Shown: positions 17,740 to 35,592 of the stretch, one piece after another
How the letters are laid out: each line of letters opens with the position of its first letter
Position numbering within the stretch: position 1 is the first letter of the stretch
NCBI RefSeq assembly: GCF_003863965.1
Contig: NZ_RRCN01000001.1
Coordinates: forward strand, 1,622,702-1,686,701
Direction of reading: 5' to 3'
DNA from: Paenibacillus oralis
GTDB lineage: Bacteria > Bacillota > Bacilli > Paenibacillales > Paenibacillaceae
DNA: 64,000 nt
Notes under the pieces: model-generated
What the model saw: the letters and a program-made list of their open reading frames with translations, nothing else
Databases searched by the model: none
What the model was told of the DNA's origin: nothing
Made by a program: the position numbers and the translations under genes

Positions 17740-17813
17740 ATATCTATTTTATCAGCACCCATTGTCCATCATCAATATGACGCTGCGGGCGCCAAATAAA
17801 GGCAGGGACAAAA

Positions 17814-17984
17814 GATAAACGAGTAACCCTCGTATCCCTCACCCAAGCAGGGCGTGAAATTGAATCCAGAGTCACTCAGGCCTGGAGCAAGGTGGAAGAG
17901 ATTACAACGGAACATCTTAATGATGAAGAAAAAGTACAGTTTGTAGCCTTGGCCAAAAAAATAGCCGCTACACTAGAAAAGTAA
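17814..17984 (+). pseudogene. C-terminal fragment of a MarR-family regulator
   Basis: The frame from 17814 reads DKRVTLVSLTQAGREIES, the wing and following strand of a MarR DNA-binding domain, then the C-terminal dimerization helix (EHLNDEEKVQFVALAKKIAATLEK) and stop at 17982-17984. There is no start codon and the HTH is absent. Its stop lies 110 bp before the quinone-oxidoreductase remnant, suggesting a former marR-oxidoreductase pair in which both genes decayed. Confidence 0.75.
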
Positions 17985-18094
17985 ATAGAAGTAAACCAAA
18001 CAATGAGTGATATAGACCATGCTTCCGAAGTGAGTTTTGTTCGAAGCCAATTCAGGAAGTTACGCTCACAAAACTTTGAGGAGGAGAGATAAGT

Positions 18095-18834
18095 ATGTCT
18101 AACAAGTCGATGCAAGCTGTTTTGGTCAATGAATATGGTGGTCCAAACGTTTTGAAGATAGCAACCGTTGAACGCCCTCAACCGCAAGCGGATGAAGTGC
18201 TCATTCGCATCGCATATGCTACGGTCATTCCGCTTGACTATAAAATTCGTAACGGTTGGCTTCAAAATGTTTTTCCTGTAACATTGCCCTATATCCCTGA
18301 TTTTTACGCTTCCGGAGTTGTCGAAGAGATCGGGCAAAGTGTAACGGAGTTCAAGCCCGGTGATCGTATTTTCGGCAGTATCAGAGGAGCTTACGCAGAA
18401 TATGGCATTGCAACCATTCAGGAACTGGTTAAAATGCCCGACAATCTCACGTTTCATTGGGTGCGGATCAAGTCATCGATTATACAACGACAAATTTCGA
18501 AGACGTCGCCAAGGAAGTAGATCTAGTCGTCGATGCTGTTGGAGGCGAGACGGAGACCCGGTCCTGGTCCGTTCTGAAGAAAGGCGGCATCCTCGTCTCT
18601 TTGACCCAGAATCCATCCCAAGAGAACGCTCAGAAGCATGGCGTTACAGCTAAATTCAATACTAAATTCCCAACCCGCGAAGACTTGCAGAGCTTAACGG
18701 AATTAATGGCCGCAGGCTCGATTAAAGCAGAGATTGATTCTATATTCCCGTTAAGCCAAGCGGATAAGGCGCTGGAGAAAAGCGAAGCAAGACATGGACG
18801 GGGAAGAATTTTGCTGAACGCAAATTCCATCTAA
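18095..18834 (+). pseudogene. Zinc-type NADPH:quinone oxidoreductase with internal deletion
   Basis: The N-terminal GroES-like half is intact (ATG at 18095, RBS GAGGAGGAGA; to KMPDNLTF near 18453). The sequence then jumps, in a different frame, to GADQVIDYTTTNFEDV (18457 on) and continues to the stop at 18834. The piece missing between PDNLTF and GADQVIDY (about 100 residues) should hold the GxGxxG NADPH site, so neither half can be functional. The apparent ORFs are 18095-18520 and 18457-18834. Confidence 0.85.
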
Positions 18835-18842
18835 CAATGAAA

Positions 18843-18877
18843 CAACACGGGTGCATAGCGCACTACGTGTTGTTTTC
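18843..18877 (+). terminator. Terminator after the oxidoreductase remnant
   Basis: AACAACACG ... CGTGTTGTT followed by TTCTTT, just after the stop codon at 18834. A well-formed intrinsic terminator that has outlived its gene. Confidence 0.75.
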
Positions 18878-19063
18878 TTTATTCACATCGAACCACCCTG
18901 ACCGATCGTATGGTTAGGCATTCCCCCTAGCCTTATCTCCATACACTTATTGAAAGTTCTTACTTTCTGACAAGGGAGGGGAATTAAGGGATAATGTGGT
19001 ATTATTACTAAGAGGTGATACATTTGAATAAAATTTTATTACCCCATGGGAGGAAGTATCAGA

Positions 19064-20557: not shown

Positions 20558-20640
20558 AAGAACTCTTGTCCAGAATAGCAGTGTAGGGGGTAGCTCTATA
20601 TCATTTGTGAAATGTCTGATTCCCCCCCTGAGAATAACGC

Positions 20641-20724
20641 TTTTCGCCCTACTTGTGGTGCGGTTCAACTTAACGGGTCTATCGGCGAAAAATACGAAAG
20701 GAGCATGCTACGGCCGCTCCTTCG
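20641..20724. repeat. rlmH-3'-end-like repeat with hairpin (att-like b)
   Basis: The minus strand reads GAACCGCACCACAAGTAGGG, a close match to the end of rlmH at 35113 (GAACCGTATCATAAGTAGGG). It is flanked by an inverted GGCGA/TCGCC pair (to about 20689). On the rlmH-proximal side lies a hairpin CGAAAGGAGC ... GCTCCTTCG (20694-20722). The site at 25921 has the same two parts in the same order, so these are probably homologous ends of integrated cassettes. Confidence 0.65.
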
Positions 20725-20782
20725 CAAAGGTGATGTGGTCAAAGATCGGGGCATTCCACTCCAATAACAAATTAATGCCTTA

Positions 20783-20992
20783 TCAAAGAGGACCCATGGC
20801 CAGAAACCCTCCAGTGTATGGATCAAGTAACATGGGAATTCTACGAACCCCACTGGGACAGCCATTCACTTGTTGGTACCATAGGCATTCATCTCCTGAA
20901 AATAGACTCGGCACCAGGCCTTTATCCGTGTAAAAACGCACGGCGTGCTCAGTGAGTCCCGTGATCTGGGCAGCTTCTTTGACCGTATGCAT
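20783..20992 (-). pseudogene. MerR-family N-terminal remnant
   Basis: The first 30 residues, starting MHTVKEAAQITGLTEHAVRF and continuing YTDKGLVPS, are a clear MerR DNA-binding helix pair. The sequence then departs from the family after about residue 32 and stops at 20783 without a wing or effector domain. It lies between two rlmH-like repeats. Probably truncated by rearrangement. Confidence 0.65.
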
Positions 20993-21163
20993 TTGGAATC
21001 CTCCTTGGAAAATAAATTAAGATAGCCACTTGACTTCGTGTAACACGAAGGTTCTAAGGTACCGCGATCCGGAAGTCGCCAAGATGATGGGCAACTGGAA
21101 AGTCGATCTGTAAATACCTTGATTGAACCGAAACTCACGCGCCTATCCTCATCTAATAAGAAG

Positions 21164-21185
21164 GGACAGGGCGAGTGCCCTGTCC
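21164..21185. other. Perfect stem-loop
   Basis: GGACAGGGC and GCCCTGTCC flank a 4-nt loop. There is no T-run on either side. It lies 57 bp from the third rlmH-like repeat. The region 20993-21314 holds no convincing gene. Confidence 0.5.
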
Positions 21186-21241
21186 TCTACTATCCTGCAC
21201 ATATATTCAAATCCCTGCGCCGCAAGGAATTCCGCAAAAAA

Positions 21242-21287
21242 CTTGCCGTCACTTATGATACGGTTCTCCGCGCTGTCTGTAACGGCA
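21242..21287. repeat. rlmH-3'-end-like repeat (att-like d)
   Basis: The minus strand reads GAGAACCGTATCATAAGT (16-bp identity with the rlmH end) inside GCCGT/ACGGC inverted ends about 40 bp apart. It lacks the hairpin found beside sites b and c. It could be a partial or solitary junction. The bases on either side do not encode RlmH. Confidence 0.55.
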
Positions 21288-21314
21288 AGTTTGAAGGCCA
21301 TTATTTACTGCCCG

Positions 21315-21719
21315 TCAATGTCTACCTCTAAACCGTTTAATCGCATCCTCGGTCACCGGCTCGAAGAGGTTAAGAAGGTTGCCATCGGGATCGCGGAACA
21401 GCATAGAACGGTTCCCCCACGGCATCATGGTCGGTTCCATTACCCAATTATCGACAAATGGCTTCAAGCGCACAAATTCGGCTTCGACATCGTCGACCCG
21501 GAACTCAATAATGACAGTGCGATTATTGGCACCTACTACGGAATCGGCGCCGAATAGCTGCGTCGTCTGGGAGTGGCCGATTGCAAGGGTGCAAGATGGC
21601 ACAACGAGTTCGGCAAATACGGGCGCGGGTCGCTCCGCCGAAACCCCCATGACTTTCTCATAGAACTCGACGAGACGATCCACGTCGTCAGTAATAATGC
21701 GTACAGAAGCGAAATTCAC
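21315..21719 (-). CDS. VOC-family (glyoxalase/bleomycin-resistance-like) protein
   Basis: A 134-residue protein made of two beta-alpha-beta-beta-beta modules: MNFASVRIITDDVDRLVEFYEKVMG at the start and FRDPDGNLLNLFEPV near the end, the usual last metal-ligand strand. The family includes metal-dependent dioxygenases, isomerases and binding proteins; the exact role cannot be told. It lies alone, inside the segment bounded by rlmH-like repeats. Confidence 0.88.
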   Translation of the reverse strand: MNFASVRIITDDVDRLVEFYEKVMGVSAERPAPVFAELVVPSCTLAIGHSQTTQLFGADSVVGANNRTVIIEFRVDDVEAEFVRLKPFVDNWVMEPTMMPWGNRSMLFRDPDGNLLNLFEPVTEDAIKRFRGRH

Positions 21720-21938
21720 AAGATATCATCCTTCCTAATAATAGGTTTGGCCGTGTCCCACAGCCGTTGTAAAACATACTTTTTTACTTATCTATTCTCC
21801 TTTACATTTACATGTCCAATTATAAAAAAACGCTACTGACAACGTTATGTCAGTAGCTTGCAATTCCTTGCGCGTCAGACTGGCTCTATTTCATGATTCA
21901 GTTCCATGGACAATCGTGCCTTTTCCGTTAGTTGAAGT

Positions 21939-22823
21939 TTATTTTCCTACAATATCATCGACCAGGGTAGGACCTGCCGGTTTCCAGCCAAGCCTCTCCC
22001 GTGTCAAAGAATTGGACGTCGGATTGTCCATTAATACGAATGGTGTAAGCCATCCAAAATGCTCTGCTGCTGCTTCTGGAGAAATGCTGATCACAGGCAG
22101 GTTCAGACTTAGGCCGATTGCCTCAGCGATATCCCTAAAAGGTATGCCTTCCTCACCAGCACCGTGAAGCCTTGACCCGGCTGGAGCAGATTCCAGGGCC
22201 AATCGAAATAGCTTTGCAGCATCGAGCCTATGTATGGCCGGCCATCTGTTCCATCCATCGCCAACGTATGCTGAAACACCTTTTTCACGAGCAATGTCAG
22301 CTAGACCTGTAGCAAAGCCATGCCTAGTGGCGTCATGCACACATGGAGAGAGCCTCACAGCAGCTGACCTTACATTACGTTCAGCCAGTGCTAGTGCCAT
22401 CTTTTCAGCTGCACTTCGCGGCATTCCCGGTGACCCATCCTGTGGCTGATCTTCCTCTGTAGCTGGTCGCCCTAATGACGGAACCATTGTAGTTACAGAG
22501 GTAATAACAAAGGGTTTGCCAGAGCCAACTAGGGTATCTCCCATTGCTTCAATGGCATGAAGATCGTCTGTAATTGCTCCGCCAAAGTCAGTGAAACTAT
22601 TGTCAAAGGCCAAATGAATGACACCGTCCGCTGCTGCGGCTCCACTTCTGAGACTGTTGATGTCATTAAGGCTGCCGCTATGCACTTGGGCCCCCATTGC
22701 ATTGAGCGCTGCAGCAGACTTATCTGAACGAGCAAGCCCAATAACTTGGTGACCGGCGTTTATAAGCTCCTTTACAACAGCAGATCCGATAAAACCAGTA
22801 GCCCCTGTAACAAAAATACGCAT
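21939..22823 (-). CDS. NAD(P)-dependent atypical SDR / epimerase-family protein
   Basis: A 294-residue extended/atypical short-chain dehydrogenase. The N-terminal dinucleotide motif is GATGFIGSAVVKELINAGHQV (TGATGFIG), with later segments DGVIHLAFD and RLSPCVHDATRHG. The canonical YxxxK is not obvious, as in many atypical SDRs acting on small ketones or flavonoid-like substrates. The AraC gene lies 98 bp upstream on the same strand and may control it. Confidence 0.87.
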   Translation of the reverse strand: MRIFVTGATGFIGSAVVKELINAGHQVIGLARSDKSAAALNAMGAQVHSGSLNDINSLRSGAAAADGVIHLAFDNSFTDFGGAITDDLHAIEAMGDTLVGSGKPFVITSVTTMVPSLGRPATEEDQPQDGSPGMPRSAAEKMALALAERNVRSAAVRLSPCVHDATRHGFATGLADIAREKGVSAYVGDGWNRWPAIHRLDAAKLFRLALESAPAGSRLHGAGEEGIPFRDIAEAIGLSLNLPVISISPEAAAEHFGWLTPFVLMDNPTSNSLTRERLGWKPAGPTLVDDIVGK

Positions 22824-22921
22824 AATAATATCCTCCTAAGCACTTCATAATAGGGTTAAGCCATCTCTTGCACATATTACAAACCCATTATGATTTAAGT
22901 CTTAAAAAGATGGTTGCCTGT

Positions 22922-23866
22922 TTAACTTGACTTATTGCCTGATTCTCCTGAGGTGAAAGTAATATCATTTGATGCATTTAACCGCTGTTCCAATTTAGCA
23001 ATATCTCTTTTAGGGGGATTTCCAAAATAGCTGCTATAATCCCGGCTGAATTGTGAGGCGCTTGCATACCCTACCAGCTGAGAAGCTGTAACTGCATCCA
23101 TTTGCCTAGATAACATAAGGTTCCTTGCCTCCTGCAGCCGCAGTTCTTTTTGATATTTCAATGGGCTCATCGAGGTAACTTCCTTAAAATGTTTATGAAA
23201 AACAGAAACACTCATATGAGCAAGCCTTGCCAGCTCTGAAACCTTCATTGGCTCATTAAAGTTGTTGCGAAGCCACTCGATTGCCTTTGCCACCTGCCGT
23301 ACACCTGTATCTGCAAAGCCCATTTCGGCGATGTGAATACCAATCTGGCTTCGCAGCAGCCGCACTAAAATCTCATCCTTAACAATTGGGGCAAGTAATT
23401 CTGTATCACTTGGATTATGCAGGCATTCCATTAACCTCGTCACCGCATTAATAATACCTATGTCAGTCTCAGTGACATAACCTACACTCCGGGTTTGCAC
23501 AGCGGGCAGTCCCTGTGGGTAAATTTTCGGAATAAACTCCGCAATTTTTTCCGGTTCTAAGGTCAACCCTACGGCGAGAAATGGCTGCTGAGAATTCGCC
23601 TCTATTGTTTTCAGAGCAACTGGTACGGCAACTGGAATCATAAGCATATGGGACCTGCCAATCTGAAAGATTTCCTTTCCCATCCTGACAGCCTTTACTC
23701 CCTGAGCAACAATTATGATGGAGGGCATGTAAAAAGATTTTTCCCAGTCCGTACTTATTTTGGAGTAGCGCCTAGTATACAGACCGGAAATGCTCTGGCT
23801 AAAGGTACCATCCTTCTTAGAATGATTGTAAATCAGCTGTGCCAGTTGACTCATTTCGTCTGCCAT
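22922..23866 (-). CDS. AraC-family transcriptional regulator
   Basis: A 314-residue regulator with an N-terminal AraC_N domain (about 20-170; PSIIIVAQGVKAVRMGKEIF, the cupin-like strand region) and a C-terminal double HTH (about 200-295: VSELARLAHMSVSVFHKHFK, QLVGYASASQFSRDYSSYFG). Such AraC_N regulators usually activate a neighbouring oxidoreductase gene; here the SDR at 21939 is immediately downstream. Confidence 0.92.
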   Translation of the reverse strand: MADEMSQLAQLIYNHSKKDGTFSQSISGLYTRRYSKISTDWEKSFYMPSIIIVAQGVKAVRMGKEIFQIGRSHMLMIPVAVPVALKTIEANSQQPFLAVGLTLEPEKIAEFIPKIYPQGLPAVQTRSVGYVTETDIGIINAVTRLMECLHNPSDTELLAPIVKDEILVRLLRSQIGIHIAEMGFADTGVRQVAKAIEWLRNNFNEPMKVSELARLAHMSVSVFHKHFKEVTSMSPLKYQKELRLQEARNLMLSRQMDAVTASQLVGYASASQFSRDYSSYFGNPPKRDIAKLEQRLNASNDITFTSGESGNKSS

Positions 23867-24045
23867 TTTATATATCTCCTTTCCGAATACTCTGGACAGA
23901 ATAGTGTACCCGATTTCGTCACGATCGACCAGTCCATGTTGAAATATATAAACGAATCAATGATCCATTTCTTTCGTTCTTCCGCTATCTGCGCACTTGC
24001 CTTCGCGGTACAGTTCTTCCATCGAGCTTGATCGTGATGAAAGCC

Positions 24046-24080
24046 TTGACGTAGAGTGCACTCTAGATGATACGCTATAA
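24046..24080 (+). promoter_or_regulatory. MerR-type promoter/operator
   Basis: TTGACG at 24046-24051 is followed by a perfect palindrome TAGAGTGCACTCTA (24052-24065), then a GATACGCTATAAT -10 region. A dyad inside an over-long -35/-10 spacer is the typical MerR-family arrangement, and this is the promoter of the merR-SDR pair at 24139. Confidence 0.75.
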
Positions 24081-24138
24081 TTAATTTCGTGGTGAAAGGA
24101 GGAATGTCCAATGTTCAAAAGAACGGACGAAATCTTCT

Positions 24139-24501
24139 ATGGCCCTTCAAATTAGTCAGCTTGTGAGCGTGACCGGATTGTCTATTCACACTCTTCGTTA
24201 CTATGAAAAGGAAGGGATTCTTCCACCCGCCAAACGTAATGAAAGCGGTATTCGCATATATGATTCGGAAGACATTGAATGGATCAAATTCGCATGCTGC
24301 CTTCGTGATTCGGGAATGAGTATTGCCGAAATGAAGCAGTTTGTGCAACTGGTCCTAAAGGGAGATGAAACGAAAACTGAACGTATCCAAATGCTTCAAT
24401 TACAAATTGAACGTATCGAAGCCCAATTCGAACAATTAACTCGCTTCAAGGAAAACATTCAATACAAAATCGATTTATATTCCTCTCAGGTAGGAGATTA
24501 A
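24139..24501 (+). CDS. MerR-family transcriptional regulator
   Basis: A 120-residue regulator with an N-terminal HTH and wing (ISQLVSVTGLSIHTLRYYEK, ...RIYDSEDIEWIKFACCLRDSGMS) and a C-terminal dimerization helix. No Cys cluster for metals is seen, placing it with the aldehyde/stress-sensing group. It lies 15 bp before a former SDR gene in one unit, and the MerR-type operator lies upstream. The start codon context is weak; no clear RBS precedes 24139. Confidence 0.88.
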   Translation: MALQISQLVSVTGLSIHTLRYYEKEGILPPAKRNESGIRIYDSEDIEWIKFACCLRDSGMSIAEMKQFVQLVLKGDETKTERIQMLQLQIERIEAQFEQLTRFKENIQYKIDLYSSQVGD

Positions 24502-24516
24502 AGGAGGCGCCAGTCC

Positions 24517-25335
24517 ATGAAAACAATCATGATCACCGGTACATCAGCAGGAATCGGAAGAGCTGCAGCCTTACATTTCGCAAATAAGGGATGGAACGTT
24601 ATCGCTACTATGCGTTCTCCTGAAAAAGAAATGGAGTTGACCCAGGTTCAGAACGTGTGAGTTACCCATCTCGACGTTGAAAACAAGGAATCTATCCAAA
24701 ATGTAATCGAGCAAGGGATATCAAAATTCGGGGAAATCGACGTCGTTGTAAACAATGCAGGTTACGGTGCATTCGGTATCTTTGAGGCTGCAACGGAAGA
24801 ACAAATTCAAAGACAGTTTGATGTCAATGTTTTTGGCCTGATGCGGGTAACCAAAGCGATTCTGCCTCATTTCAGAAAGAACCGTAAGGGAGTTATTATC
24901 AACGTTACCTCTGAGGGAGGCAGAGTCACCTATCCGTTGTTTTCGCTTTATCATGCTTCCAAATATGCCGTAAACGGATTCACTGAGTCTCTACTTTATG
25001 AACTGTCTCCATTTAATATCCGGGTAAAGATTGTGGAGCCGGGACCCACCAAAACCGAGTTCACGGGCAGATCTAGGGATGCTATTCAGGATACCCGGTT
25101 AACAGATTATAGTGAATTCGAGCAAAAAATCAATTTAATGTATCAAAGCCTGTTCGACCCTGAACAAATCGCTTCTCCGGAACTTGTTGCTGAAGTTATC
25201 TACAAGGCGGCAATCGATCCTTCCCGCCAACTGAGATATCATACCGGCTCTGACTTGATGATTGAACGTGAAGAACTAAACGATAATGAATTTATCGGCA
25301 AAATGGCTCAAAGATTTGATATAGATATCGAATAA
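24517..25335 (+). pseudogene. Short-chain dehydrogenase with an in-frame stop
   Basis: ATG at 24517 follows AAGGAGG and the frame is continuous over 273 codons except for TGA at 24658-24660 (codon 48). The cofactor motif TGTSAGIG, NNAGYGAFG, YHASKYAV (catalytic YxxxK) and an EPGPTKTEF segment are all present, so one nonsense change separates this from a normal 272-residue classical SDR. Restart at 24841 would lack the Rossmann motif. It is paired with merR upstream. Either a recent pseudogene or a sequencing error. Confidence 0.85.
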
Positions 25336-25356
25336 TCTTCAGCATTCCATGTGCAG

Positions 25357-25397
25357 AGACGAACAGCCTTCTGGTAAATGGGTTGCTGTTCGTCTTT
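25357..25397 (+). terminator. Terminator after the SDR gene
   Basis: AGACGAACAGC ... GCTGTTCGTCT, an 11-bp perfect stem followed by TTG, 21 bp after the SDR stop codon. Confidence 0.7.
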
Positions 25398-25744
25398 GTA
25401 ATTGACTGAGGAAAAACAAATCTTTCCGTCCATCACCCAACACAGTCCTCGCAGCGGAATTGTGGCAGTACGGTCGGATCTCCATCATCGGGCAATTTGC
25501 CAATAAAGGCACCGCCGTTTGTCGCGCCAATAGCGTCGGAGCCGAAGAAACTGAAAGCCAAGATCAATGAGCTATCGGAGATTGGGCAGCGATTAGAGCA
25601 GCGGCAAGCAGACCGGATTGAGCTGCGATTCAAAAGTCAGCAACTGCTCGTGAATGAAGAACACGGTGCATGCGAACAAAGTTTGACCCTGTAACGGGTC
25701 TGCGGCCAATTGGACATGTCTTGCACGGCCAAGGCATGTCCTTT

Positions 25745-25918
25745 TTATTCCTCTTTATCTGCGGCAACTTCGAGCTGCCATTGGATCAATTCTTGCATAC
25801 CGCCGTCATCAGGCTCGCTCTTATCCCAATCGCTCCCATAAAACTTCTGGGATTCTACTACAAGCGCAAACTCTGCCCACCTCTCCTGCCTATTTAAGAA
25901 ATTTTGTCCTCTTGACAA
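25745..25918 (-). other. Small open frame abutting an rlmH-like repeat
   Basis: An open frame of 57 codons from a possible TTG at 25918 to TAA at 25745. It contains ERWAEFALVVESQKFYGSDW and a Trp/Gln-rich acidic tail, which looks like real protein composition. It has no ATG and no RBS, and its 5' end coincides with the rlmH-like repeat at 25921. It may be a gene cut at the junction. I do not recognise the family. The rest of 25398-25744 and 26007-26293 shows no convincing gene. Confidence 0.35.
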
Positions 25919-25920
25919 TT

Positions 25921-26006
25921 TTTTTCGCCGTCACTTATGGTACGGCTCAGCCTAACGGATCTAACGGCGAAATTGCTAAAGGAGCTGCCGCCGACAGCTC
26001 CTTCGT
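25921..26006. repeat. rlmH-3'-end-like repeat with hairpin (att-like c)
   Basis: The minus strand reads GAGCCGTACCATAAGTGACG, matching the rlmH 3' end and encoding EPYHK-stop in the same register as RlmH's own C-terminus, though not preceded by RlmH coding sequence. The ends CGCCGT/ACGGCG form an inverted pair about 44 bp apart. A perfect hairpin AAGGAGCTG/CAGCTCCTT (about 25979-26003) lies on the rlmH-proximal side, as at 20641. Confidence 0.7.
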
Positions 26007-26293
26007 TATATTGTAGCGTTCCTTTTCGGATATGTTGCCAACGGGAAAGCTAAGGTTCTTCACTTTGTTATTCGGATATGTTTTCGCAGGGTACGCCCCT
26101 ATTAGGTAATCCCATTATACCTTTGCATCCAGGATCTTGAATTCTGATGGCAATCTGGTTACCGTAGCTGTAAAAACTACCAAGTGTATTATAAAATCAA
26201 ACGCTTACATTTGATAGAAAAGTATGAGTATAGCTTCTGCCTGATAGACTTACTTAATAGTTACAGAAACATCTTTTTAGAGTTGAACGCATA

Positions 26294-27577
26294 CTAGTTT
26301 ACCTCGTTAGTCGCTTTATTTGTATCTGTAAATTCCCCAATTTCCGGCAAAGGTTTGACACAAAACATGCTGATTATCAGGAAGATTCCAAATGTCAGAA
26401 AATAAGATGGCCAACCAACAACACCTATAATTAAAGGAGCAAGTGCCGGAACAATAGATTGTGGTAAAGTATTGGCAACATTCATAATCCCGAAATCTTT
26501 TGCAGCATCTTCTTTACGTGGAAGAATTCTAGCTACAAGTGCTGTATCAACGGCTGAGAAACAGCCTGCGCCCAGACCCAAAATAATTGCTGCTACAACG
26601 ATTGCTGGAAAAAGCGGGAAGAATGCAAAGACCAGAATCCCCATAATCATAATAGCCGCAGAAGTATACAAAAAAGGCTTTTGTTTGCGGACCTTATCTG
26701 ACCATGCTCCCCCAACAACGCTCATAAGTGCCATTGCTAGTATCATAGCAATGTTTATTACTCCCAGTCCTTGAGTGGCTTCTTCTTGCGTATAATTCAT
26801 ACGGCTAACCAGCATAACAGTCAGGTAACTGGCACTTCCATAACCCAGCATTAAAAAGAATTTAGCAATAATCGCATAGCTAAAAGAAGGAAACTTTCGA
26901 GGACTAGGATATATTCTACTAACCCGCTCTATAAAATTCACTTTAGTTTTGGGAGCAGATATAATGTTAACTTTACCATCTTTGATAAGAAATAAACTAA
27001 TAACAGGTCCCACTAAACCCAGTATGATAAGCATACTCCACTTTATATCAGCGCTAACAGAAGTCATCACCATCATGAGCACCATCCCAACAGATGCAGC
27101 GGCGGGTCCCACAAGTCCTATTATTCCGGATATAGTTCCTTGTTTTTCTGCCTTTACTTGTTCAGGAATTAAAGCCATATACGACGCCATAGCAAAATTG
27201 AAGAAAAACTGTGCGGCAGACCAACCAACAATGATTTGCCATATAGCAGTGCCGAATCCAACCAAAATGAGCCCTGCGCTGCCGAGCAGTGCACCGAACA
27301 GAATCCATGTCCGACGTCTCCCAAATGATACATTTGTCCGGTCACTTACTGCACCGCCTATTGGATTACCAATGAGTGCAAAGAAGGCTCCAATACCTGC
27401 CACTAGACCATAAGAGTTTAAATAACCGTCCGGATCAATATCCATCATGCGGAACGTAAGTAGAAGGATTCCCGGTGTCAGTAATGCTAGCATCATTAAT
27501 CCGAAGCCAATAATTATTCCCGTGGTCAATCTGCCTAATGGTGTGGTGACCTGTCCGATAATGTTTGTCTCGCTCAT
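26294..27577 (-). CDS. MFS sugar transporter, GPH-like
   Basis: About 427 residues and 12 TM helices. Start at MSETNIIGQ (27577) because TGGGGGAAAC precedes it; an upstream in-frame ATG at 27610 lacks an RBS. GNPIGGAVSDRTNVSFGRRRTWIL in the loop between helices 2 and 3 is the MFS/GPH signature. Last gene of the low-GC operon, 36 bp after the GH13 gene, so it probably imports that enzyme's sugar (inference). Confidence 0.88.
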   Translation of the reverse strand: MSETNIIGQVTTPLGRLTTGIIIGFGLMMLALLTPGILLLTFRMMDIDPDGYLNSYGLVAGIGAFFALIGNPIGGAVSDRTNVSFGRRRTWILFGALLGSAGLILVGFGTAIWQIIVGWSAAQFFFNFAMASYMALIPEQVKAEKQGTISGIIGLVGPAAASVGMVLMMVMTSVSADIKWSMLIILGLVGPVISLFLIKDGKVNIISAPKTKVNFIERVSRIYPSPRKFPSFSYAIIAKFFLMLGYGSASYLTVMLVSRMNYTQEEATQGLGVINIAMILAMALMSVVGGAWSDKVRKQKPFLYTSAAIMIMGILVFAFFPLFPAIVVAAIILGLGAGCFSAVDTALVARILPRKEDAAKDFGIMNVANTLPQSIVPALAPLIIGVVGWPSYFLTFGIFLIISMFCVKPLPEIGEFTDTNKATNEVN

Positions 27578-27612
27578 TTCAGTTTCCCCCAAATATAAAG
27601 TAAAAGGCAAGG

Positions 27613-29073
27613 TTATAAAACGATTCCCTCTTTATTGTGATCCAAATACGTAATTTCATATTCTTTCGTCCGAAAATCAGCACGGAGTGTTGTTCTGTAT
27701 TCTTGATTTATCCAGGTAATGCCCAGTTTCCCGTTCTCCAATTCTTCGTCTATTTCTATAGTTCCATCAAAAGCCGGATAGGTATTGCGAAAACGCATAA
27801 TCTCATACAAGCGCTGGAGCATAGGAAGTTTTACTCGATCTTCAATTTCTGCTCTTGTATAGTTGTGACGGTTAATACTTCTTGGTTCACCTATACGCTT
27901 GAGGCTTTCTATATCATTCTCGCCTGCCAAGAGACCTACATAGTAAACCTGAGGAATACCTGGAGCAAAAAGTTGTACAATTCGCGCAAGCATGTATGCT
28001 TCCTCATTTTCATCAAGTGCAGAATAATAAGTTGACATCAACTGATATTGTTTCATTTTGGAACCTGACATCTTAACCATTCCAGCAGGCTTCTGAATAT
28101 ACTTTTGGGTTACCTCCAACTTCTGGTTTATTCTTTCTCTTACCAGATCAATTTCATTCTCATCCAGTAAACCAGCAACATCAACTACTCCGATTCCATC
28201 ATGGGTATCAAGTGTGGTGAATTGCTTGCGTGGGCAAGTCTTGAGCCAGTGAATCAATCTGTCCGTCCTCCCTGTCATTAAACCGTGAAGCATTAGCATC
28301 GGTAATGCAAAATCGTACACCCAATGTCCCTTTTCTGCCATTTTGAGCTGTACTTTGTAATTCTCATGTATTTCTGGCAACATCTCAGTACCGTGCGCTC
28401 GAAGTGGCTCCATTCCGATATCCAGTACATCCCACACTTCTGGTTCAACAAAGAAACAACTGGTGCCTGGTTTCTTCGATGCGTACGCAAAGGCATCAAA
28501 TCGAATAAGTGGAACATATTGGGCTAAATGCTCCAGGTTTCGCTTAAAATAATCCTTAGTAGCCTGTGCCCATGGATTCACATCTACTTGTTCTTCGAAG
28601 AAGGTGTTCCACAGTTTTACAACCTTGCCATCCTGTCTGGTGAATTCCTTATAAGGACCTTGTAATTTTCGCCGGTAAAGGGCTTCCAATTCTTCTTCAG
28701 TTGGCTCGCCGTTTGGCCAAAATTCGTTCCAGTGAATGAACATTTCCCTGTATGGAGAAGAATCACCATTTTTCATGTAATCTTTGAATTCTTCACTACG
28801 TATAGACACATGGTTAATCATAAAGTCTGCCATCAAATAATATTTTTCGGAAAATTTACGAATGTCATCCCAGTCACCGAAAGCCGGATCTACTATATCA
28901 TAGTTGATTACTGCAAACCCACGATCGCCCGAAGAAGGATAAAAAGGCAAGATGTGGACACCGCCGATAATACCTTGAAAATGCTTATCCAGTACTTCGT
29001 ACAGCTCCTTGAGGTTTCCCCCCATACTATCGGAATAAGTAATTAGCATAATTTCGTTCTGTATCTTCTTCAT
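27613..29073 (-). CDS. GH13 sucrose-phosphorylase-family enzyme
   Basis: A 486-residue cytosolic (beta/alpha)8 enzyme without signal peptide. It resembles sucrose phosphorylases (GH13_18): GGVHILPFYPSSGDRGF near the N-terminus, the nucleophile in RFDAFAYASKKPGTSCFF, acid/base region LPEIHEN and stabiliser in TLDTHDGIGVVD. The family splits sucrose, sucrose 6F-phosphate or glucosylglycerol with phosphate, giving glucose 1-phosphate. Exact specificity cannot be assigned from sequence alone. It overlaps the esterase stop by 1 bp and sits between two esterase and two MFS genes. Confidence 0.85.
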   Translation of the reverse strand: MKKIQNEIMLITYSDSMGGNLKELYEVLDKHFQGIIGGVHILPFYPSSGDRGFAVINYDIVDPAFGDWDDIRKFSEKYYLMADFMINHVSIRSEEFKDYMKNGDSSPYREMFIHWNEFWPNGEPTEEELEALYRRKLQGPYKEFTRQDGKVVKLWNTFFEEQVDVNPWAQATKDYFKRNLEHLAQYVPLIRFDAFAYASKKPGTSCFFVEPEVWDVLDIGMEPLRAHGTEMLPEIHENYKVQLKMAEKGHWVYDFALPMLMLHGLMTGRTDRLIHWLKTCPRKQFTTLDTHDGIGVVDVAGLLDENEIDLVRERINQKLEVTQKYIQKPAGMVKMSGSKMKQYQLMSTYYSALDENEEAYMLARIVQLFAPGIPQVYYVGLLAGENDIESLKRIGEPRSINRHNYTRAEIEDRVKLPMLQRLYEIMRFRNTYPAFDGTIEIDEELENGKLGITWINQEYRTTLRADFRTKEYEITYLDHNKEGIVL

Positions 29074-30563
29074 TAATGTTCCTCCTCTAATATTTCATCC
29101 CGAATAAGGCGAGCCATATTCAGAGACAACTCAGCATAATGATCAGTGATATAAAGCACCTCATCACAATATGAGACGTGGTGATTGAAGAGTCGTTGGC
29201 AAATCCACTGTATAGGAATGTAGACTTCACCATCTTTATATACAGATTCACAAAACATGGAGTAGATTCGATTTTCCATGATACAACCGATACTTCCACG
29301 GGCAAATTGCAGCATTCTTCCATCTTTTAGCACTATTTCAACGGAATGGCCCTGATTGAAATAACGACACTGCTTGTCGCCAAAAACGTCAGCTACAAAT
29401 GAGGCAGGTACTAAAAAATATTCCCCTCTACTGATAGCGCTTCCATTTAGTCCGTGATACTTTAACTTTTTATGTCTGATTACCGGACCCTGCATCTTGA
29501 CCAATTGGTTGTTGACAAATGCCTTAGTTCTCCCTAACGCAAGAGCTATTCCATATTTATCGCCCTTTCTCGGGGATATTGGTTCTGTATTGACAATATG
29601 TCCTTGTTCATCACGCCTGATTCCAGAGAACAGATAATCCCATACCAACTCCGCATCATCAAAAGTCTGTCCATGGTCACGGTTCTTTACGTCCCTGAAT
29701 ACCAGATCGGCCAATTCCCCCTTGTAAAAAGCAAAGTTATCCTCACCTACGATTCTAATTTCCGGCAAAGTACGGCAATGATTGATTCTCTTCCAATACT
29801 CTCGATTCCGTTTAATTACATAATCAGCGTCGCCCAGGTAATGTGGCGGTACATCATCAAGCTCAAGCCGGGTTTGCCAGACAGCTAGCGCTCCTCCCCG
29901 ATTGATTACTCCATCATTTTCGTCAAATAAAAGGCGCGGGTCCGATGGACCGCCAGATCCAGCCTTCCCTGCAAACACTTGTCCGTAATATCGTGCCATT
30001 TGGCTTGTCATCAGGTTGCCCATTGACATCCCTTGAATAAATACTCTGCCCTCATCAATGTTATATTTGCACTTCATTAGCTCAATAAGTTGAAGCACAA
30101 AGTTCATATCATGGTTATTCTCTGGTTGATCCGAAGGAGGGTTTAAATATATTCCTTCTTCATTTGGGGCTGTTGCCACCACTATTTGCTCAGGATCACA
30201 TTCCACGTTCCAAAACCGTCTATCACTAGCATTCGGGAAAAGGACAATAAAACCTTCACGATCAGCAACCAGTGTCCACGAGCTGTAAACAGCCTGCCCC
30301 CACCCCGTCATTAAACCACCATGCATGGACACAACCAAGGGTACTTTTTGGGTTCCATCGTATGCAACTGGTACATATTCATACCAAGTGTTGTTAACCT
30401 CTCCCACAACATGACCGGTATGTTCGATCAATCTTGCAGGGTACACTTGTGAGTTGTTTCCATTCTCATTTACGACCATGTCGGAATCTTTTATTGCTTC
30501 CGGAAGATATTCCCGATTATCATCATTTGGTGTTCCCGGAAGAATCACAATTTTCTTCTCCAT
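29073..30563 (-). CDS. PHB-depolymerase-like esterase fused to a copper-amine-oxidase-like domain
   Basis: About 496 residues from MEKKIVILPG (30563; AAAGGGG RBS). An in-frame ATG at 30704 would overlap the previous gene and is unlikely. The N-terminal 330 residues are an alpha/beta hydrolase: VVSMHGGLMTGWG (oxyanion), the nucleophile in IQGMSMGNL and His in NRDHGQTF. The C-terminal 130 residues match the copper-amine-oxidase N-terminal-like domain (KAFVNNQLVKM, YFLVPASFVADVFG, VYIPIQWICQRLF), normally found on secreted Paenibacillus proteins. No signal peptide is visible, which is odd for that domain. Probably removes acyl groups from an imported sugar ester. Confidence 0.8.
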   Translation of the reverse strand: MEKKIVILPGTPNDDNREYLPEAIKDSDMVVNENGNNSQVYPARLIEHTGHVVGEVNNTWYEYVPVAYDGTQKVPLVVSMHGGLMTGWGQAVYSSWTLVADREGFIVLFPNASDRRFWNVECDPEQIVVATAPNEEGIYLNPPSDQPENNHDMNFVLQLIELMKCKYNIDEGRVFIQGMSMGNLMTSQMARYYGQVFAGKAGSGGPSDPRLLFDENDGVINRGGALAVWQTRLELDDVPPHYLGDADYVIKRNREYWKRINHCRTLPEIRIVGEDNFAFYKGELADLVFRDVKNRDHGQTFDDAELVWDYLFSGIRRDEQGHIVNTEPISPRKGDKYGIALALGRTKAFVNNQLVKMQGPVIRHKKLKYHGLNGSAISRGEYFLVPASFVADVFGDKQCRYFNQGHSVEIVLKDGRMLQFARGSIGCIMENRIYSMFCESVYKDGEVYIPIQWICQRLFNHHVSYCDEVLYITDHYAELSLNMARLIRDEILEEEH

Positions 30564-30625
30564 AGAAATCAACCCCTTTTTTAGTTTATTCCTTCTGTAT
30601 GGTCGGTTAATTTTACAACCGAAAG

Positions 30626-31468
30626 TCAGAATCGACTCTGCCCCGTATCGCTCAGACCAAAGAATTCCAAGGCGTGTTGTATCGCCAGATCCCAGAATCT
30701 CCACTCATGACCATATCCCTCAAGTGTCCAGAACTCTGCATCAAGTCCAATCTTCTTGGCATGTTCTTGGAAAACAGTGAAGTTCTCATAAATTAGTTTA
30801 TCCTTACTACCACACGCAAATAATAACCTTGGAAGTTTACGGCTATCTGCAAGAGAGTTTATAATATTCCATACGTTCTCGTTGGAATGAACAAACTTTT
30901 CCAAACCTCCCGCATTATCTACCATTCCCCGCAAACGTTGATAAAAAGGGTCGTCTTTTTGCAGATCCTGTTCGGTCAGATTATTAAAGTCTACAGGTAC
31001 TGCAGACAAGACAGCCGCAGCTGCGAATTTCTCAGGATAATTCACTGCAAATTTTATGGTTCCCCGTCCACCCATTGAAAGGCCTGCTATAAAGTTATCC
31101 TTGCGTTTTTCTGATGCGGGAAACCAGTTATAAATCATTGGCATTAATTCATCGATTAAATAATCGTACATATTGAACCCCAACATGCAACGGCTCCAAT
31201 TTGAATAGTTACTATTTAAAGCACTAGGCATTACCACTATGAGATCCTTTTCACACGCATACAATTCGATATTTGTTTTTCTCAACCAATCCGAATGATC
31301 GCCAAATGTACCGTGAAGCAGCCATAACACCTTGTACTTCTTTTGGTTTTGGTAATATTCTTTGGCAGAAATATGATGTGGTTTGTCAGGTAAAATAATG
31401 GATATCTCATGATTAGAATGCAAAAACTGACTTTCAAAATTCATGGTCACGATGGACACACTCTTCAC
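30626..31468 (-). CDS. Esterase D / tributyrin-esterase-like alpha/beta hydrolase
   Basis: A 280-residue esterase of the EstA/S-formylglutathione-hydrolase fold. WLLHGTFGDHSDWLR gives the oxyanion loop, NFIAGLSMGGRG the nucleophile (GLSMGG), and the C-terminal GYGHEWRFWD the catalytic His. The start is GTG at 31468 or ATG at 31444. It lacks a signal peptide. Family members cleave short-chain acyl esters and some feruloyl or acetyl esters of sugars. It lies 15 bp after the MFS gene in the operon. Confidence 0.85.
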   Translation of the reverse strand: MKSVSIVTMNFESQFLHSNHEISIILPDKPHHISAKEYYQNQKKYKVLWLLHGTFGDHSDWLRKTNIELYACEKDLIVVMPSALNSNYSNWSRCMLGFNMYDYLIDELMPMIYNWFPASEKRKDNFIAGLSMGGRGTIKFAVNYPEKFAAAAVLSAVPVDFNNLTEQDLQKDDPFYQRLRGMVDNAGGLEKFVHSNENVWNIINSLADSRKLPRLLFACGSKDKLIYENFTVFQEHAKKIGLDAEFWTLEGYGHEWRFWDLAIQHALEFFGLSDTGQSRF

Positions 31469-31483
31469 TCCAATCGTTCAGAA

Positions 31484-32698
31484 TTAATCTGCATATGTTT
31501 TGTTCCTAGTCAAAGATTTTCTATTGAACAAGAAGATCACTAGGGCAATTAAAATTGGAATAATCATCAACCTATACATGATTGCATATCCATCCACCTC
31601 GCTTCCTCCATAACCCTGAACAATAGTTACAATTAATCCTGCCAAAGATGGTGTAATCAAGTATCCGGTATCTACACCTATATAATTTGTATTACCAGCG
31701 ACTCCACGTCTTTCATTAGGTACAAGTTTCATGCAAAGCGTCTGGATTGAAGGCTGACAAATGCCATAACCGCAAGCCGAGAGTGCACCTGAAACTATAA
31801 ACATGGGAAGAGACTTGGAAAAACTGATCACAATGAACGACAAAGCAAAAATTACAATACCAGGAATTATTGTTGTGCTTACGCCATATTTTTCAGTAAG
31901 TTTTCCACTAATAGGTCGGGTAAATAATAAACATACTGCATAAGATGTAAAAAATAGCCCAATGTCATCAACCCCAGTAGCGCCCCCGTATATCAAAATA
32001 AAAGAATTTATACAGGAGAAGGCTCCTGCAAGAAAAAACATTATAATCGTTGGTACAATCACTTCAAGTGCGATTATGTTGTCTAGGGAAATCTTAAATC
32101 TTTTATTTGGGCTTGGCGCTTCACTCTTCAGCCTCAGGATCAGCAGTAGTACCGTTCCCATCGCAACAGCACTTATTATGAACGTCGAGTTATAGCCATA
32201 GACCTTAACTAATTCCAATCCAAGTGTTGGGCCTATAGCTGTAGCAATAGCCTGACCTAAGGAGAAAATGCCTATTCCGGATGCAATTCTATTCTCTGGC
32301 AGGGCATCACTGGCTAAAGCTAAACTAAGAGGGGCAAGAAATCCCATTCCTATTCCATGAAGCAAGCGGCCTACTAGGATCATGTTGATATCGGCTGCTA
32401 TTCCATAGCAGATAAATGCCAGAATAATGACACCTGTAGACACTGCTAATAATCGATTTTTTCTGAAATAACCCGTTGCAGGCCCAACGATTGGCCTTAC
32501 ACCCAGTGCAGTTATAGCAAACATACTCGTTACCATCCCTACAATAGTAGCGGTTCCCCCCAGGTGAGCGGCGAACTTGGGAATCAAGGCACCCGTCATA
32601 AATTGGCCCAAATTCAATATAATATTTATAATAAAAATACTTATAAAAGATTGAGTCCAAATCGTTTCCTTAGTTTTGCTTTTGTTATACTTTCTCAT
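31484..32698 (-). CDS. MFS transporter
   Basis: About 404 residues and 12 TM helices. The ATG at 32698 (MRKYNKSK) has a good GAGGAAG RBS; 32713 is an alternative. GRLLHGIGMGFLAPLSLALASDALPENR and RPISGKLTEKYG are typical MFS signatures of the multidrug/sugar-efflux-type branch. First transporter of the operon, 49 bp after the tetR stop. Import or export direction is uncertain. Confidence 0.85.
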   Translation of the reverse strand: MRKYNKSKTKETIWTQSFISIFIINIILNLGQFMTGALIPKFAAHLGGTATIVGMVTSMFAITALGVRPIVGPATGYFRKNRLLAVSTGVIILAFICYGIAADINMILVGRLLHGIGMGFLAPLSLALASDALPENRIASGIGIFSLGQAIATAIGPTLGLELVKVYGYNSTFIISAVAMGTVLLLILRLKSEAPSPNKRFKISLDNIIALEVIVPTIIMFFLAGAFSCINSFILIYGGATGVDDIGLFFTSYAVCLLFTRPISGKLTEKYGVSTTIIPGIVIFALSFIVISFSKSLPMFIVSGALSACGYGICQPSIQTLCMKLVPNERRGVAGNTNYIGVDTGYLITPSLAGLIVTIVQGYGGSEVDGYAIMYRLMIIPILIALVIFLFNRKSLTRNKTYAD

Positions 32699-32747
32699 TT
32701 TCAACTTCCTCATAACTAAACTCCATTGTTTTTATTCCTTGAATGCC

Positions 32748-33329
32748 CTAGAATTCAATACCGCCCCTCAAACTATCGACGAATAACTTTACAACCAGTA
32801 TAAAGCTCTCATCAATAGACACATTCGACAGTTCAAAGTACCCTGTAATTTCTAATGACACAAAACCGTGTATCATGCTTCTATATGCTCTTAAGAGATT
32901 TATATTGTCATAACCATCCTTTGAAAACTTTTTTAATGCATCAGCCATTGGATCGAGAATCATCCGAAGATGCTCTTTACCATGAACTGAAGGCATGTTG
33001 ATCATTACTTTGTATAGCTCTGGATGTTGAAGGGCAAACTTTCGATAAACAACAGCAAACTCCATTAACAAATAACGGCTATCTGTAATGCCTCCCGTTG
33101 CCATAGTCATAGACTCATAAAGTTGTGATATTGCTACTTTGCCAATTTCAACACTTAAGTGAGTAGCGCTTTCAATGAAGTTATACAACGATGTAGTTGT
33201 AACTCCTAATTTTTTGGCCAAAGTATGCAGAGAGAAATTCTCAAAACCCTTTTCCTCAATCAATGATACCGCTGTCATAATAATCTTTTCCTTGCTTAAT
33301 CCTTTTCTCCCTATGACAAACACCCCCAA
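32748..33329 (-). CDS. TetR-family regulator (WHG-type C-terminus)
   Basis: A 193-residue regulator. The N-terminal HTH is LSKEKIIMTAVSLIEEKGFE followed by LAKKLGVTTTSLYNFIESAT. The C-terminal domain has the WHG-like pattern (YRSMIHGFVSLEITGYFELS). It is the first gene of the operon running to 26294 and probably its repressor. The 200 bp upstream are very AT-rich, with several near-palindromes but no clear operator that I can single out. Confidence 0.88.
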   Translation of the reverse strand: MGVFVIGRKGLSKEKIIMTAVSLIEEKGFENFSLHTLAKKLGVTTTSLYNFIESATHLSVEIGKVAISQLYESMTMATGGITDSRYLLMEFAVVYRKFALQHPELYKVMINMPSVHGKEHLRMILDPMADALKKFSKDGYDNINLLRAYRSMIHGFVSLEITGYFELSNVSIDESFILVVKLFVDSLRGGIEF

Positions 33330-33533
33330 AAGTTAATGCAATTATCTTTTATTTAATATAAAAATACACAATAAAATAAGGATATTTAGTAATGAATAAA
33401 AAAATTAATTCCACAAAAGTTAATAGTGTTAACATCAAGATAAATTAATATTGTCATGTTGTCAAGAAATAATTTGTGAAAATGTCATTATAACTGTGCT
33501 ATGTAAATGTCACTTTTCTGTTGAGCCTCCCGT

Positions 33534-34110
33534 TTACAAAGAGGTCCCTGCATAGCTATTACGCTGTGAATACATAACATCTGGAATTAATTGTTTTGTG
33601 ATACGCTTGGGTAAGTGGGTGCCGAACGTGGATTTCCAAAGATGGTCTTGAGCGGGCTTGTGTGGTTGCAAAGAAGTCGCCTTGTTTGCTGCCTTGGTCT
33701 TGCGTTCAGGTTTCTCTGTCACTTGCAGCGAGAACGCTTGGCCTTAATATGATTGATATGCGGGCTGTCATGGCCTGCCAAAGTGGAAAAGAGGCTTCTT
33801 CTCCCCGGGGCAAGTTCCTGTTCTACCGTAAGCTTTTCATTTGCCGATCGGAAGATGTTGTGCCGATCACTGTACAAGACTAAGCGGAACACCATAATTC
33901 CGAATGCCCTGTAGAATAACAAGAGATTAACCTTCCCGACATTAGTTGCGGAACACGGCACTGACAACGATCCCCGTTACGTCGTCAATGACAGCATGCA
34001 GTGCAAAAGCGGGAGCACGCTCCTCTAGCCAAGCACGTCTCTGCTTAGCTTGCTTGTTTCCTTGATATCCAGTAAAATTCTCCGCATACTCACAACAATA
34101 ATCGCGTTTT
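33534..34110 (-). pseudogene. Relic of a DDE transposase (ISNCY/IS1202-like)
   Basis: Three disconnected minus-strand pieces in different frames run in order. RRAWLEERAPAFALHAVIDD (about 34045-33985) contains the first catalytic Asp region. LVLYSDRHNIFRS and EKLTVEQELA (33967-33719) contain the second catalytic Asp region. The Lys/Pro-rich tail PHKPAQDHLWKS (33722-33534) follows. This order and wording match IS1202/ISNCY-type transposases. About 100-150 residues between the second and third pieces, and all of the N-terminal HTH, are gone. No terminal inverted repeats were found. Confidence 0.7.
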
Positions 34111-34191
34111 ATGAAGGTTGAAGGTTGACATGAAATTCAAAGGAAATATGAAATAACAATGCAAGTAACCACTTGTATTAAAAGGTGACCT

Positions 34192-34275
34192 ATGAACGAC
34201 ACTCACAGCACTAGCGATAAAGTATTGATGACTGCCATCGATCTCATGTCTGAAAAAGGTTATGACGGGGTGTAA
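34192..34275 (+). pseudogene. TetR N-terminal stub
   Basis: ATG at 34192 with AAGGTGA upstream, then 27 residues ending DLMSEKGYDGV and stop. This is the first helix of a TetR HTH, cut where the serine-recombinase remnant begins. A regulator truncated by insertion or deletion. Confidence 0.65.
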
Positions 34276-34603
34276 GCCAGATAAACAAAGAGCCCGACAC
34301 TGAACTCACTCGCCAGTCGAAGCTGCAGCTGAAGCTTCGAGACGACCAGTCCAAGCCCTGGTGAGCCGGTTCGACGCCCTGCTCCGCCGCTCTTCGTTCC
34401 CGCCGTAGTGCAAGACCCTGCTGCACTTGATCGTGAGGATCACGTTGGACGATAGGAAGCGCGTCGGCAGCATCGAGTTCGCCTTTAATGAGGAGAAAGA
34501 GAAGCATTTTTTAAGCGCAGCCCCTTCTGAAACTCTGTTGAACCAAAATCAATATCACCACGTACGGTCCTTCTCTTGGTTGTACTTTTGGCACCATTTA
34601 TGA
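34276..34603 (+). pseudogene. C-terminal remnant of a large serine recombinase
   Basis: Frame-shifted sequence with SQINKEPDTELTRQSK, then RPVQALVSRFDALLRRSSFP, an in-frame TAG, then KTLLHLIVRITLDD and GSIEFAFNEEKEKHFLSAAP. This coiled-coil/beta pattern ending in an hFLS-A-PS segment is what I know from the C-termini of large serine recombinases in Paenibacillus-like genomes. The catalytic domain is absent. It lies about 0.5 kb from the rlmH 3' end, the target of serine recombinases (Ccr) in staphylococci. Its end runs into the convergent MltR-like relic. Confidence 0.55.
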
Positions 34604-35069
34604 CTCCTGCAACGCCAAAAGCTAACCGATTAAACGCCATTCTAGGAGGTAGTTGATCTTTAAAAACATTGTAGTGTAACTCTCTACAGCGAGAAGCAAT
34701 CGGAGGATGATTAAAATCAATTATCTTCATTGAGTGTGCGAAATCGTTTCTTATCTTTCTGATAATATGTAAGTCTCTGCGAAGACGAAGGGGATTAGCC
34801 CCAAAAGATAAATCAACTCAATTCTCGAAGAGAATATCGCGAGCCCACCTGTCCCGTAGAAAAGATCCATAAAACTTTCTGAGTCATCCACAAATGTATT
34901 CTGCAATAGTTCCTTCAATAACTCATCTAAAAACGCTGCGGCCATCAAAGCACAACCACGATCAGTCTCCTTATCAAGATGGAGACGAAACTCGAGTACC
35001 TCCTCCGTCCCCATCTCCTCAAACAGCTTAATGACATCTTCAGCAGCTCTTATTTATTTCTGGTTTCAT
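34485..35069 (-). pseudogene. Frameshifted MltR-like (mannitol-repressor-family) gene
   Basis: ATG at 35069 follows GAAGGAGGG. After MKPEINK one frameshift leads to AAEDVIKLFEEMGTEEVLEF, which continues through FYGTGGLAIFSSRIELIYLLG. A second frameshift near 34765 leads to RKIRNDFAHSMKIIDFNHPP and IASRCREL. The segments FSSRIELIYLLGLI, RKIRNDFAH and SRCREL are diagnostic of the family. Two one-base changes would restore one frame. MltR proteins lack proven DNA binding; their role is unclear. Confidence 0.75.
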
Positions 35070-35105
35070 GGAAATTCCCTCCTTCATCTCTCATAATATT
35101 CAAAA

Positions 35106-35150
35106 TTTCGCCCTACTTATGATACGGTTCCCCCCGATTAATCTTCACCG
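35106..35150. other. rlmH 3'-end integration-site candidate (attB-like)
   Basis: The last 14 codons of rlmH plus 7 bp form a CGCGGTG ... AGGGCG-bounded stretch whose core (GAACCGTATCATAAGTAGGG on the minus strand) recurs at 21242, 25921 and, more diverged, 20641, all in the same orientation. The position matches the SCCmec attB at the rlmH 3' end in staphylococci. Confidence 0.6.
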
Positions 35151-35592
35151 CGCGATAAATCTGCTCGGTGAGGACAAGGCGCATAAGCTGATGCGGCAGC
35201 GTCATGCGCCCGAACGACAGCCGCTGCTGCGCGCGGCTGAGCACACCATCAGCGAGCCCGTGGCTGCCGCCGATGACAAAAGCGACATGGCTCGTCCCGT
35301 ACGTGCCGAGCCGGTCGAGTTCGGCGGCCAGTTCCTCCGAGCTCCAGAGCTGGCCGCCGATGGCGAGCGCGATGACATGCGCGTCGCTCTTGATCTGCGC
35401 GAGGATCCGTTCGCCCTCGCGCTCCTTCACCTGAAGCACTTCCGCCTCGCTCATCGTCTCCGGCGCCTTCTCGTCGGGCACCTCGACGATCTGAAACTTC
35501 ACATATGGCGTCAGCCGCTTCGTATATTCGGCGATCCCTTGCACCAGGTACTTTTCCTTCAACTTGCCGACGGCAATGATTTGTATGTACAT
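35113..35592 (-). CDS. rlmH: 23S rRNA (pseudouridine-1915-N3) methyltransferase RlmH
   Basis: A 159-residue SPOUT methyltransferase, normal length, ending RGEPYHK. The SAM-binding knot is visible ([29 protein letters not shown]). It methylates pseudouridine 1915 in helix 69 of 23S rRNA, acting on the 70S ribosome. It is the last gene of the conserved yyc/wal-htrA-rlmH block. Its 3' end is the predicted integration site; integration preserves the C-terminus. Confidence 0.97.

Follow-up and report, generated by a model that had tools for sequence, protein, structure and literature searches.

A very probable composite, decayed SCC-like island at the 3' end of rlmH in Paenibacillus oralis, with related cassette arrays across the genus

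The stretch of DNA analysed here, referred to as the window, comprises 64,000 nucleotides of the Paenibacillus oralis genome (assembly GCF_003863965.1, contig NZ_RRCN01000001.1, positions 1,622,702 to 1,686,701) and contains rlmH, the target gene of a very probable composite island resembling the staphylococcal cassette chromosome (SCC). The gene lies on the minus strand and ends in GAACCGTATCATAAGTAG, and its final five codons and stop form an 18-bp core. Cores on the same strand start at 35130, 25948, 21266, 20666 and 14843 in the whole window and bound the elements designated A to D and a segment E. A first-pass annotation had reported that the rlmH end recurs in the same orientation at three sites, with the copy near 20641 more diverged; both observations were confirmed, and a fifth core, at 14843, had been missed. 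The features are:

35113 to 35592, minus strand: rlmH, 23S rRNA methyltransferase, target gene (Pfam SPOUT_MTase PF02590, E 1e-57).
35113 to 35130, minus strand: site 1, the core at the rlmH 3' end, a half site followed by the right end of element A; BLAST homology to the sister genome G012 stops at its last base.
25931 to 25948, minus strand: site 2 core, in a quasi-palindromic full site of about 25920 to 25975 (core search, folding).
21249 to 21266, minus strand: site 3 core, in a full palindromic site (core search, folding, alignment to the ends of elements in loci L068, L101 and L076).
20649 to 20666, minus strand: site 4 core, the most diverged of the four sites noted earlier (core search); G012 homology begins here.
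14826 to 14843, minus strand: site 5 core, a weak palindrome (core search, folding).
25949 to 35112, no strand assigned: element A, 9.2 kb, with a TetR regulator, two MFS permeases, two esterase-like proteins and an amylase-domain protein (Pfam).
21267 to 25930, no strand assigned: element B, composite, 4.7 kb (Pfam; ends read from the sites).
20667 to 21248, no strand assigned: element C, 0.6 kb, decayed, with differing end types (sequence comparison).
14844 to 20648, no strand assigned: element D, composite, end types unclassable, with a POT-family transporter, a LuxR/TPR regulator and a DUF4386 protein.
8692 to 14825, minus strand: segment E, with a two-component system, a VanZ-family protein, an ABC ATPase and an FtsX-type permease (Pfam).

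The core was searched for with the 18-bp degenerate pattern GARCCNYAYCAYAARTRR, using the reversed pattern as the control. The 8.1 Mb genome holds six exact matches, five of them inside the window, and none to the control, so the repeat is not widespread away from rlmH here, as the insertion proposal required. A looser 24-mer with 3 mismatches matched five times in the whole genome, always in the window (control, 1). The sixth exact core (C1:1503409-1503426) has no inverted arms recognisable by eye. The essential C of TATCATAA, at core position 10, is present in all five window sites and in 119 of 122 sites overall. A class-wide scan of 121 genomes, in which the rlmH ends themselves are counted, gave 0 to 4 matches per genome outside the genus, except in G134 (8) and G049 (7).

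The distribution of cores was then read from 80 named rlmH loci with flanks up to 10 kb, of which 79 were usable (L082 had no core by the rule and was dropped). At most one mismatch being allowed, 78 extra cores lie downstream on the rlmH strand, 1 lies downstream on the opposite strand and 0 lie upstream; at two mismatches the counts are 87 downstream on the same strand, 7 opposite and 3 upstream. At least one downstream core is found in 50 of the 79 loci.

Away from rlmH a full site has the core between two arms, the left one contributed by the upstream element and the right one by the downstream element. The quasi-palindrome reported earlier for every copy is present at 25948, 21266 and 20666, with 54-nt fold energies of -20.9, -23.9 and -9.3 kcal/mol, and is weak at 14843 (-6.2 kcal/mol); the description fails for the rlmH copy, a half site whose rlmH side is coding sequence. 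Hairpins had also been noticed beside the sites near 20641 and 25921, and both were recovered:

25980 to 26003, minus strand: hairpin beside site 2, towards rlmH, at element A's distal end (-19.4 kcal/mol).
20699 to 20722, minus strand: hairpin on the rlmH side of site 4 (-17.5 kcal/mol).

Each of these hairpins is part of the upstream element, at its distal end. Among 122 sites, a structure with z below -2 is found at 44 % of distal ends, 16 % of the opposite sides and 8 % of 122 control stretches (z-scores from mononucleotide shuffles, 20 per stretch). At site 3, the 76 bp from the core onward are 86-89 % identical to the rlmH-proximal ends of the elements in L068 (P. timonensis) and L101, which bear a recombinase, and in L076, where a remnant is left. 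In L086, L095, L113, L123 and G011 (6376428) the core is followed by GCACAAA..., a recurring right-end type that lacks the usual palindromic arm and is perhaps that of a separate recombinase lineage.

The two ends of an element tend to match. End types were hand-defined after the sites had been viewed, and the junctions between elements therefore serve as the control. In the named loci, end types agree within 36 of 40 classifiable elements (78 in all, p 6e-7) and arm types agree across 19 of 30 classifiable junctions (78 in all, p 0.43). An enlarged set was formed by adding four arrays, removing near-duplicates and dropping elements shorter than 150 bp (the stretch used for G024 does not include the rlmH end, so its first listed site is not rlmH); here agreement is found within 50 of 60 classifiable elements out of 115 (Fisher p 7e-6) and across 32 of 50 classifiable junctions out of 122 (Fisher p 0.33). 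Mean complementarity is 7.43 within elements, 6.98 at junctions and 7.03 on random pairing, for which the highest of 300 permutations reached 7.34. The units are thus cassettes stacked one behind another, since their ends match within elements and not across junctions. The window itself has the core as a direct repeat and inverted repeats at element ends; the end types of A are alike and those of B and C differ. A mutual-information scan found no significant linkage of core positions to either arm class, and positions outside the core linked to their own side only, with the left classes partly overlapping the tested positions; it separates the two site halves without locating the crossover point.

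Homology to relatives is lost at the rlmH core or no more than 9 bp from it, as in integration at the rlmH 3' end. Most of the aligned flank pieces of the sister genome G012 have 85-95 % DNA identity; on the rlmH side this genome is colinear with the window to the last base of the core, and its next 13 kb are different DNA. Further on, the two have in common the pieces at 21876-20907 and, at 20667-18965, the POT cassette, and colinearity resumes, with gaps, from about 14.78 kb leftward. At site 4 this cassette, the part of element D extending to about 18965, is common to both genomes from the core onward (96 % identity, G012:C2:152696-154400), and the DNA before the core is unrelated. P. macerans (G013) is 94-97 % identical on the rlmH side to window position 35104, nine bases past the core, where both genomes have the same common right-arm start, and is 94 % identical again from 14810 to 8718. 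Between rlmH and about 14.8 kb the two share only 67 bp around site 4 and 79 bp around site 2 (limits of E 1e-8 and 60 bp or more), so the cassettes are not syntenic in all relatives: unrelated content stands between matching sides. By these alignments the variable island reaches at least to about 14.8 kb. It is wider than the segments of about 9 and 5 kb first proposed, the former of which stands as element A; the latter, the 4.7-kb element B, is best described as a fusion.

In element A, GC content ranges over 31-49 % in 500-bp bins from 26.0 to 34.5 kb, and with limits of E 1e-15 and half coverage none of its genes has a homologue in the 80 rlmH loci. Element B has a first part at 24.1-25.3 kb, with a MerR regulator and an apparently broken short-chain dehydrogenase, and a second with an AraC regulator, an NAD epimerase and a glyoxalase. 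The AraC-epimerase pair is 94 % identical at the DNA level in P. phocaensis (L070), where it stands directly behind rlmH, which together with the unlike ends fits a fused B. In element C, two stretches that adjoin at 20907-21194 are separated by about 0.9 kb in G012 and by about 1 kb in G028 and G009, which suggests an internal deletion in C. L084 has a counterpart of element D's LuxR/DUF4386 pair (71 % DNA identity), lying between a site with two mismatches at +2851 and an exact one at +6358. The far portion of the G011 array contains segment E (14823-8692) at 91 % identity, its flanks there being unmatched, and as rlmH itself is only 82 % identical between the two genomes, horizontal exchange is likely. 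The segment is 94 % identical in P. macerans and behaves as a far flank there and in G012; at its far end no core was found (at most four mismatches, window 9000-1, no armed site). It is probably a further cassette; failing that, it would be ancestral backbone. Replication or helicase genes of the conserved SCC region were not found among the window genes scanned, which did not include every open reading frame (ORF).

Two stretches of the window resemble Ccr-like large serine recombinases, and both point to the rlmH-side end of their elements:

34272 to 34534, plus strand: C-terminal part of a Ccr-like large serine recombinase gene, left as a remnant with an interrupting stop (tblastn, 58-70 % identity to the G019 recombinase; 63 % over 70 positions).
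25475 to 25561, plus strand: weak, short, possible Ccr-like remnant, covering the zinc-ribbon region and lying about 0.4 kb from site 2 (44-61 % identity, E 2e-4 to 2e-3).

The window thus has remnants only, and genes are present in relatives. Large serine recombinases near rlmH in these genomes score best against the CcrB model, at 307-438 bits. With a profile built from six of them, matches of at least 433 bits were found in 10 of 39 genus genomes; the next score was 322, and 29 of the 39 had no match at 433. In each of the ten, the match and a core share a contig and are no more than 25 kb apart. At E 1e-20, intact or partial recombinase matches occur in the flank of 16 of the 80 named loci, excluding matches at the rlmH position because one query ORF runs antisense through rlmH. 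Some genomes and named loci are one and the same (identical recombinases in L036/L104 and in L038/L068, similar ones in L048/L079; G013 is L066), and the counts for the 39 genomes and for the 121 elements given below are therefore not independent of the named loci. Exact cores per genome average 2.7 in the 10 genomes with Ccr and 5.3 in the 29 without (Mann-Whitney p 0.03), a comparison that is only suggestive, as it counts cores anywhere and uses partly draft genomes. L104 (P. pinistramenti) has both recombinases and a P4-type primase. In L048 and L079 (probably the same genome) and in L086, the recombinase frame runs through its own attachment core into rlmH antisense, so that integration would change its C-terminal tail; the same is possible for L040 and L052, where no core was found by pattern. 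Recombinase homologues were also found on viral contigs, and L202-L206 were among the query loci of the second remnant search. The sole PF00239 match in the P. oralis genome (C1:1120920) was rejected as the agent, lying about 0.5 Mb away beside a repressor-like gene and scoring best as XisF, not Ccr; it is probably a prophage's.

The region is very probably a composite SCC-like island that has decayed, and the repeated insertion at the rlmH 3' end suggested by the first-pass annotation is upheld by its modularity, the breakpoints at cores, the matched ends, the gene remnant in A and the intact recombinases of relatives. A Ccr-type large serine recombinase would have inserted circular DNA cassettes at the core that the final rlmH codons form. 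Each insertion would leave a core at both ends, so that later cassettes stack in the same orientation and give the order rlmH-core-element-core-element-core-chromosome, each element ending in its own pair of inverted arms, often with a hairpin at the distal end. Element A once had a recombinase gene pointing to its rlmH-side end, now degraded, and element B may have had one too; the loss of cores between some elements would have produced the fusions in B and D. That the recombinase performs the exchange, that the intermediate is circular and that recombinase-less cassettes are moved in trans is what we infer.

Several results weigh against this account. The genome search for large serine recombinases and attachment sites proposed earlier yielded the matching cores and no intact Ccr-like gene in this genome. 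The second remnant is a weak candidate, a further search giving 58-75 % identity over 20-24 residues (E 5e-4 to 8e-4, two queries). The Paenibacillus recombinases fall below the CcrB model cut-off of 900 bits. Of 121 bounded elements (duplicates kept, and large elements under-represented by the flanks of at most 10 kb in named loci), 3 have an intact recombinase gene, 9 a remnant and 109 none at E 1e-4. Of 60 classified elements, 10 have ends of unlike type, and 55 of the 115 escaped classification. In some relatives exact cores also occur singly outside the cluster (in G011, for example, at 3.03 and 4.21 Mb). No excision has been observed.

Related genomes contain much larger arrays. At least five exact cores, and up to 23, are found in 13 or more of the 39 genus genomes, and the median element is 3.5 kb long. 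In G011 the array spans 126 kb (G011:C1:6300076-6426453) and comprises 23 sites, counted with rlmH and with at most one mismatch; no Ccr-like gene was detected in that genome, where the only PF00239 match is partial and about 1.8 Mb away. G030 has 12 sites over 75 kb and no PF00239 match. Among 83 cargo proteins of G011 (loci L172-L177, most of the array; the far end, L171, lies outside), the commonest Pfam families are two-component systems, solute-binding proteins and GyrI-like or AraC regulators. Twelve PADLOC models were matched by proteins of the array, each in one or two proteins. There is also one match to an aminoglycoside acetyltransferase family and one to a beta-lactamase family.

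The Paenibacillus rlmH 3' end may be an integron-like capture site driven by serine recombinases, in which long same-orientation arrays of small, mostly recombinase-less cassettes persist without a Ccr-like gene and are exchanged between species when an incoming element briefly supplies the enzyme; this is put forward tentatively, its chances being judged slightly short of even. Rather unlikely is a history in which autonomous SCC-like elements each lost their recombinase and mobility genes in place and nothing moves in trans. The remnants in 9 of the 121 elements, one or two of them in the window, agree with such decay, as do the fused elements and lost cores, but the 109 elements with no match and the median element size of 3.5 kb do not. 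Moreover, the rlmH arrays of L070 and G012 contain recombinase-less stretches with 94-96 % DNA identity, and some at least therefore seem to move without a gene of their own. It is also improbable that the array is reshuffled mainly by homologous recombination (e.g. after natural transformation) through rlmH, conserved flanks or repeated ends, and was site-specific only at its origin. End sequences of about 40-90 bp do recur at many sites, and the fused elements suggest deletions, but the breakpoints examined coincide with the edge of the core, whose 18 bp are too few to support efficient homologous recombination. Transcription terminators or dispersed palindromes merely resembling the rlmH end would account for the hairpins, but this reading was rejected as having almost no likelihood, given the strand and position counts of the cores (78 against 1 and 0 over similar lengths) and the unrelated DNA that abuts the core in different species.

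The capture-site reading invites comparison with integrons, whose arrays are long same-orientation rows of small recombinase-less cassettes, each bounded by an imperfect palindrome. The likeness would be an analogy only: no resident recombinase platform was seen, the site is different, and the recombinase is presumed to be of the serine and not the tyrosine type. The island itself is of a known, SCC-like kind. Staphylococci have SCC and SCCmec elements and composite or pseudo-SCC islands (PMC8407400), and the insertion at the rlmH 3' core, the direct repeats of the last codons, the inverted end repeats, the composite islands and the Ccr-type large serine recombinases (here in relatives) all correspond; cassettes without described ccr genes have been reported among them too. 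Unlike SCC, whose core is GAAGCATATCATAAATGA, the Paenibacillus core is GAACCGTATCATAAGTAG-like, no intact ccr was found here and the relatives' recombinases score below the CcrB cut-off, arrays reach 23 sites and 126 kb, and the cargo of the window consists of transporters, regulators and enzymes. The Enterococcus cassette chromosome shares the rlmH site, sites of about 50 bp with inverted repeats, the TATCATAA motif with its essential C, and variable cargo (PMC6222049). There, by that article's own search, genomes have fewer than five site matches, unlike the 13 or more of 39 Paenibacillus genomes with at least five exact cores; Ccr-like matches at 433 bits are missing from 29 of the 39. An island of P. 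pinistramenti with the rlmH site, two large serine recombinases and tandem islands (PMC10061031, the same record as L104) is a single case found through its polymerase-SSB genes, and recombinase-less arrays are not described in the available part of that report. No other description of such islands in Paenibacillus was found in a search that included the accessible parts of PMC8407400 and PMC12033364 and left subscription journals mostly outside. What is new here is the large recombinase-less arrays, genus-wide, which exceed those described for enterococci in PMC6222049 and are often without a detectable enzyme. A possible movement of cassettes in trans by Ccr, the growth of arrays, and a possible role of environmental Bacilli as a reservoir of cassettes and recombinase diversity now become testable. 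It is chiefly as carriers of methicillin resistance that cassette chromosomes are known, and in Paenibacillus accessory genes across the genus are organised by that same docking site.

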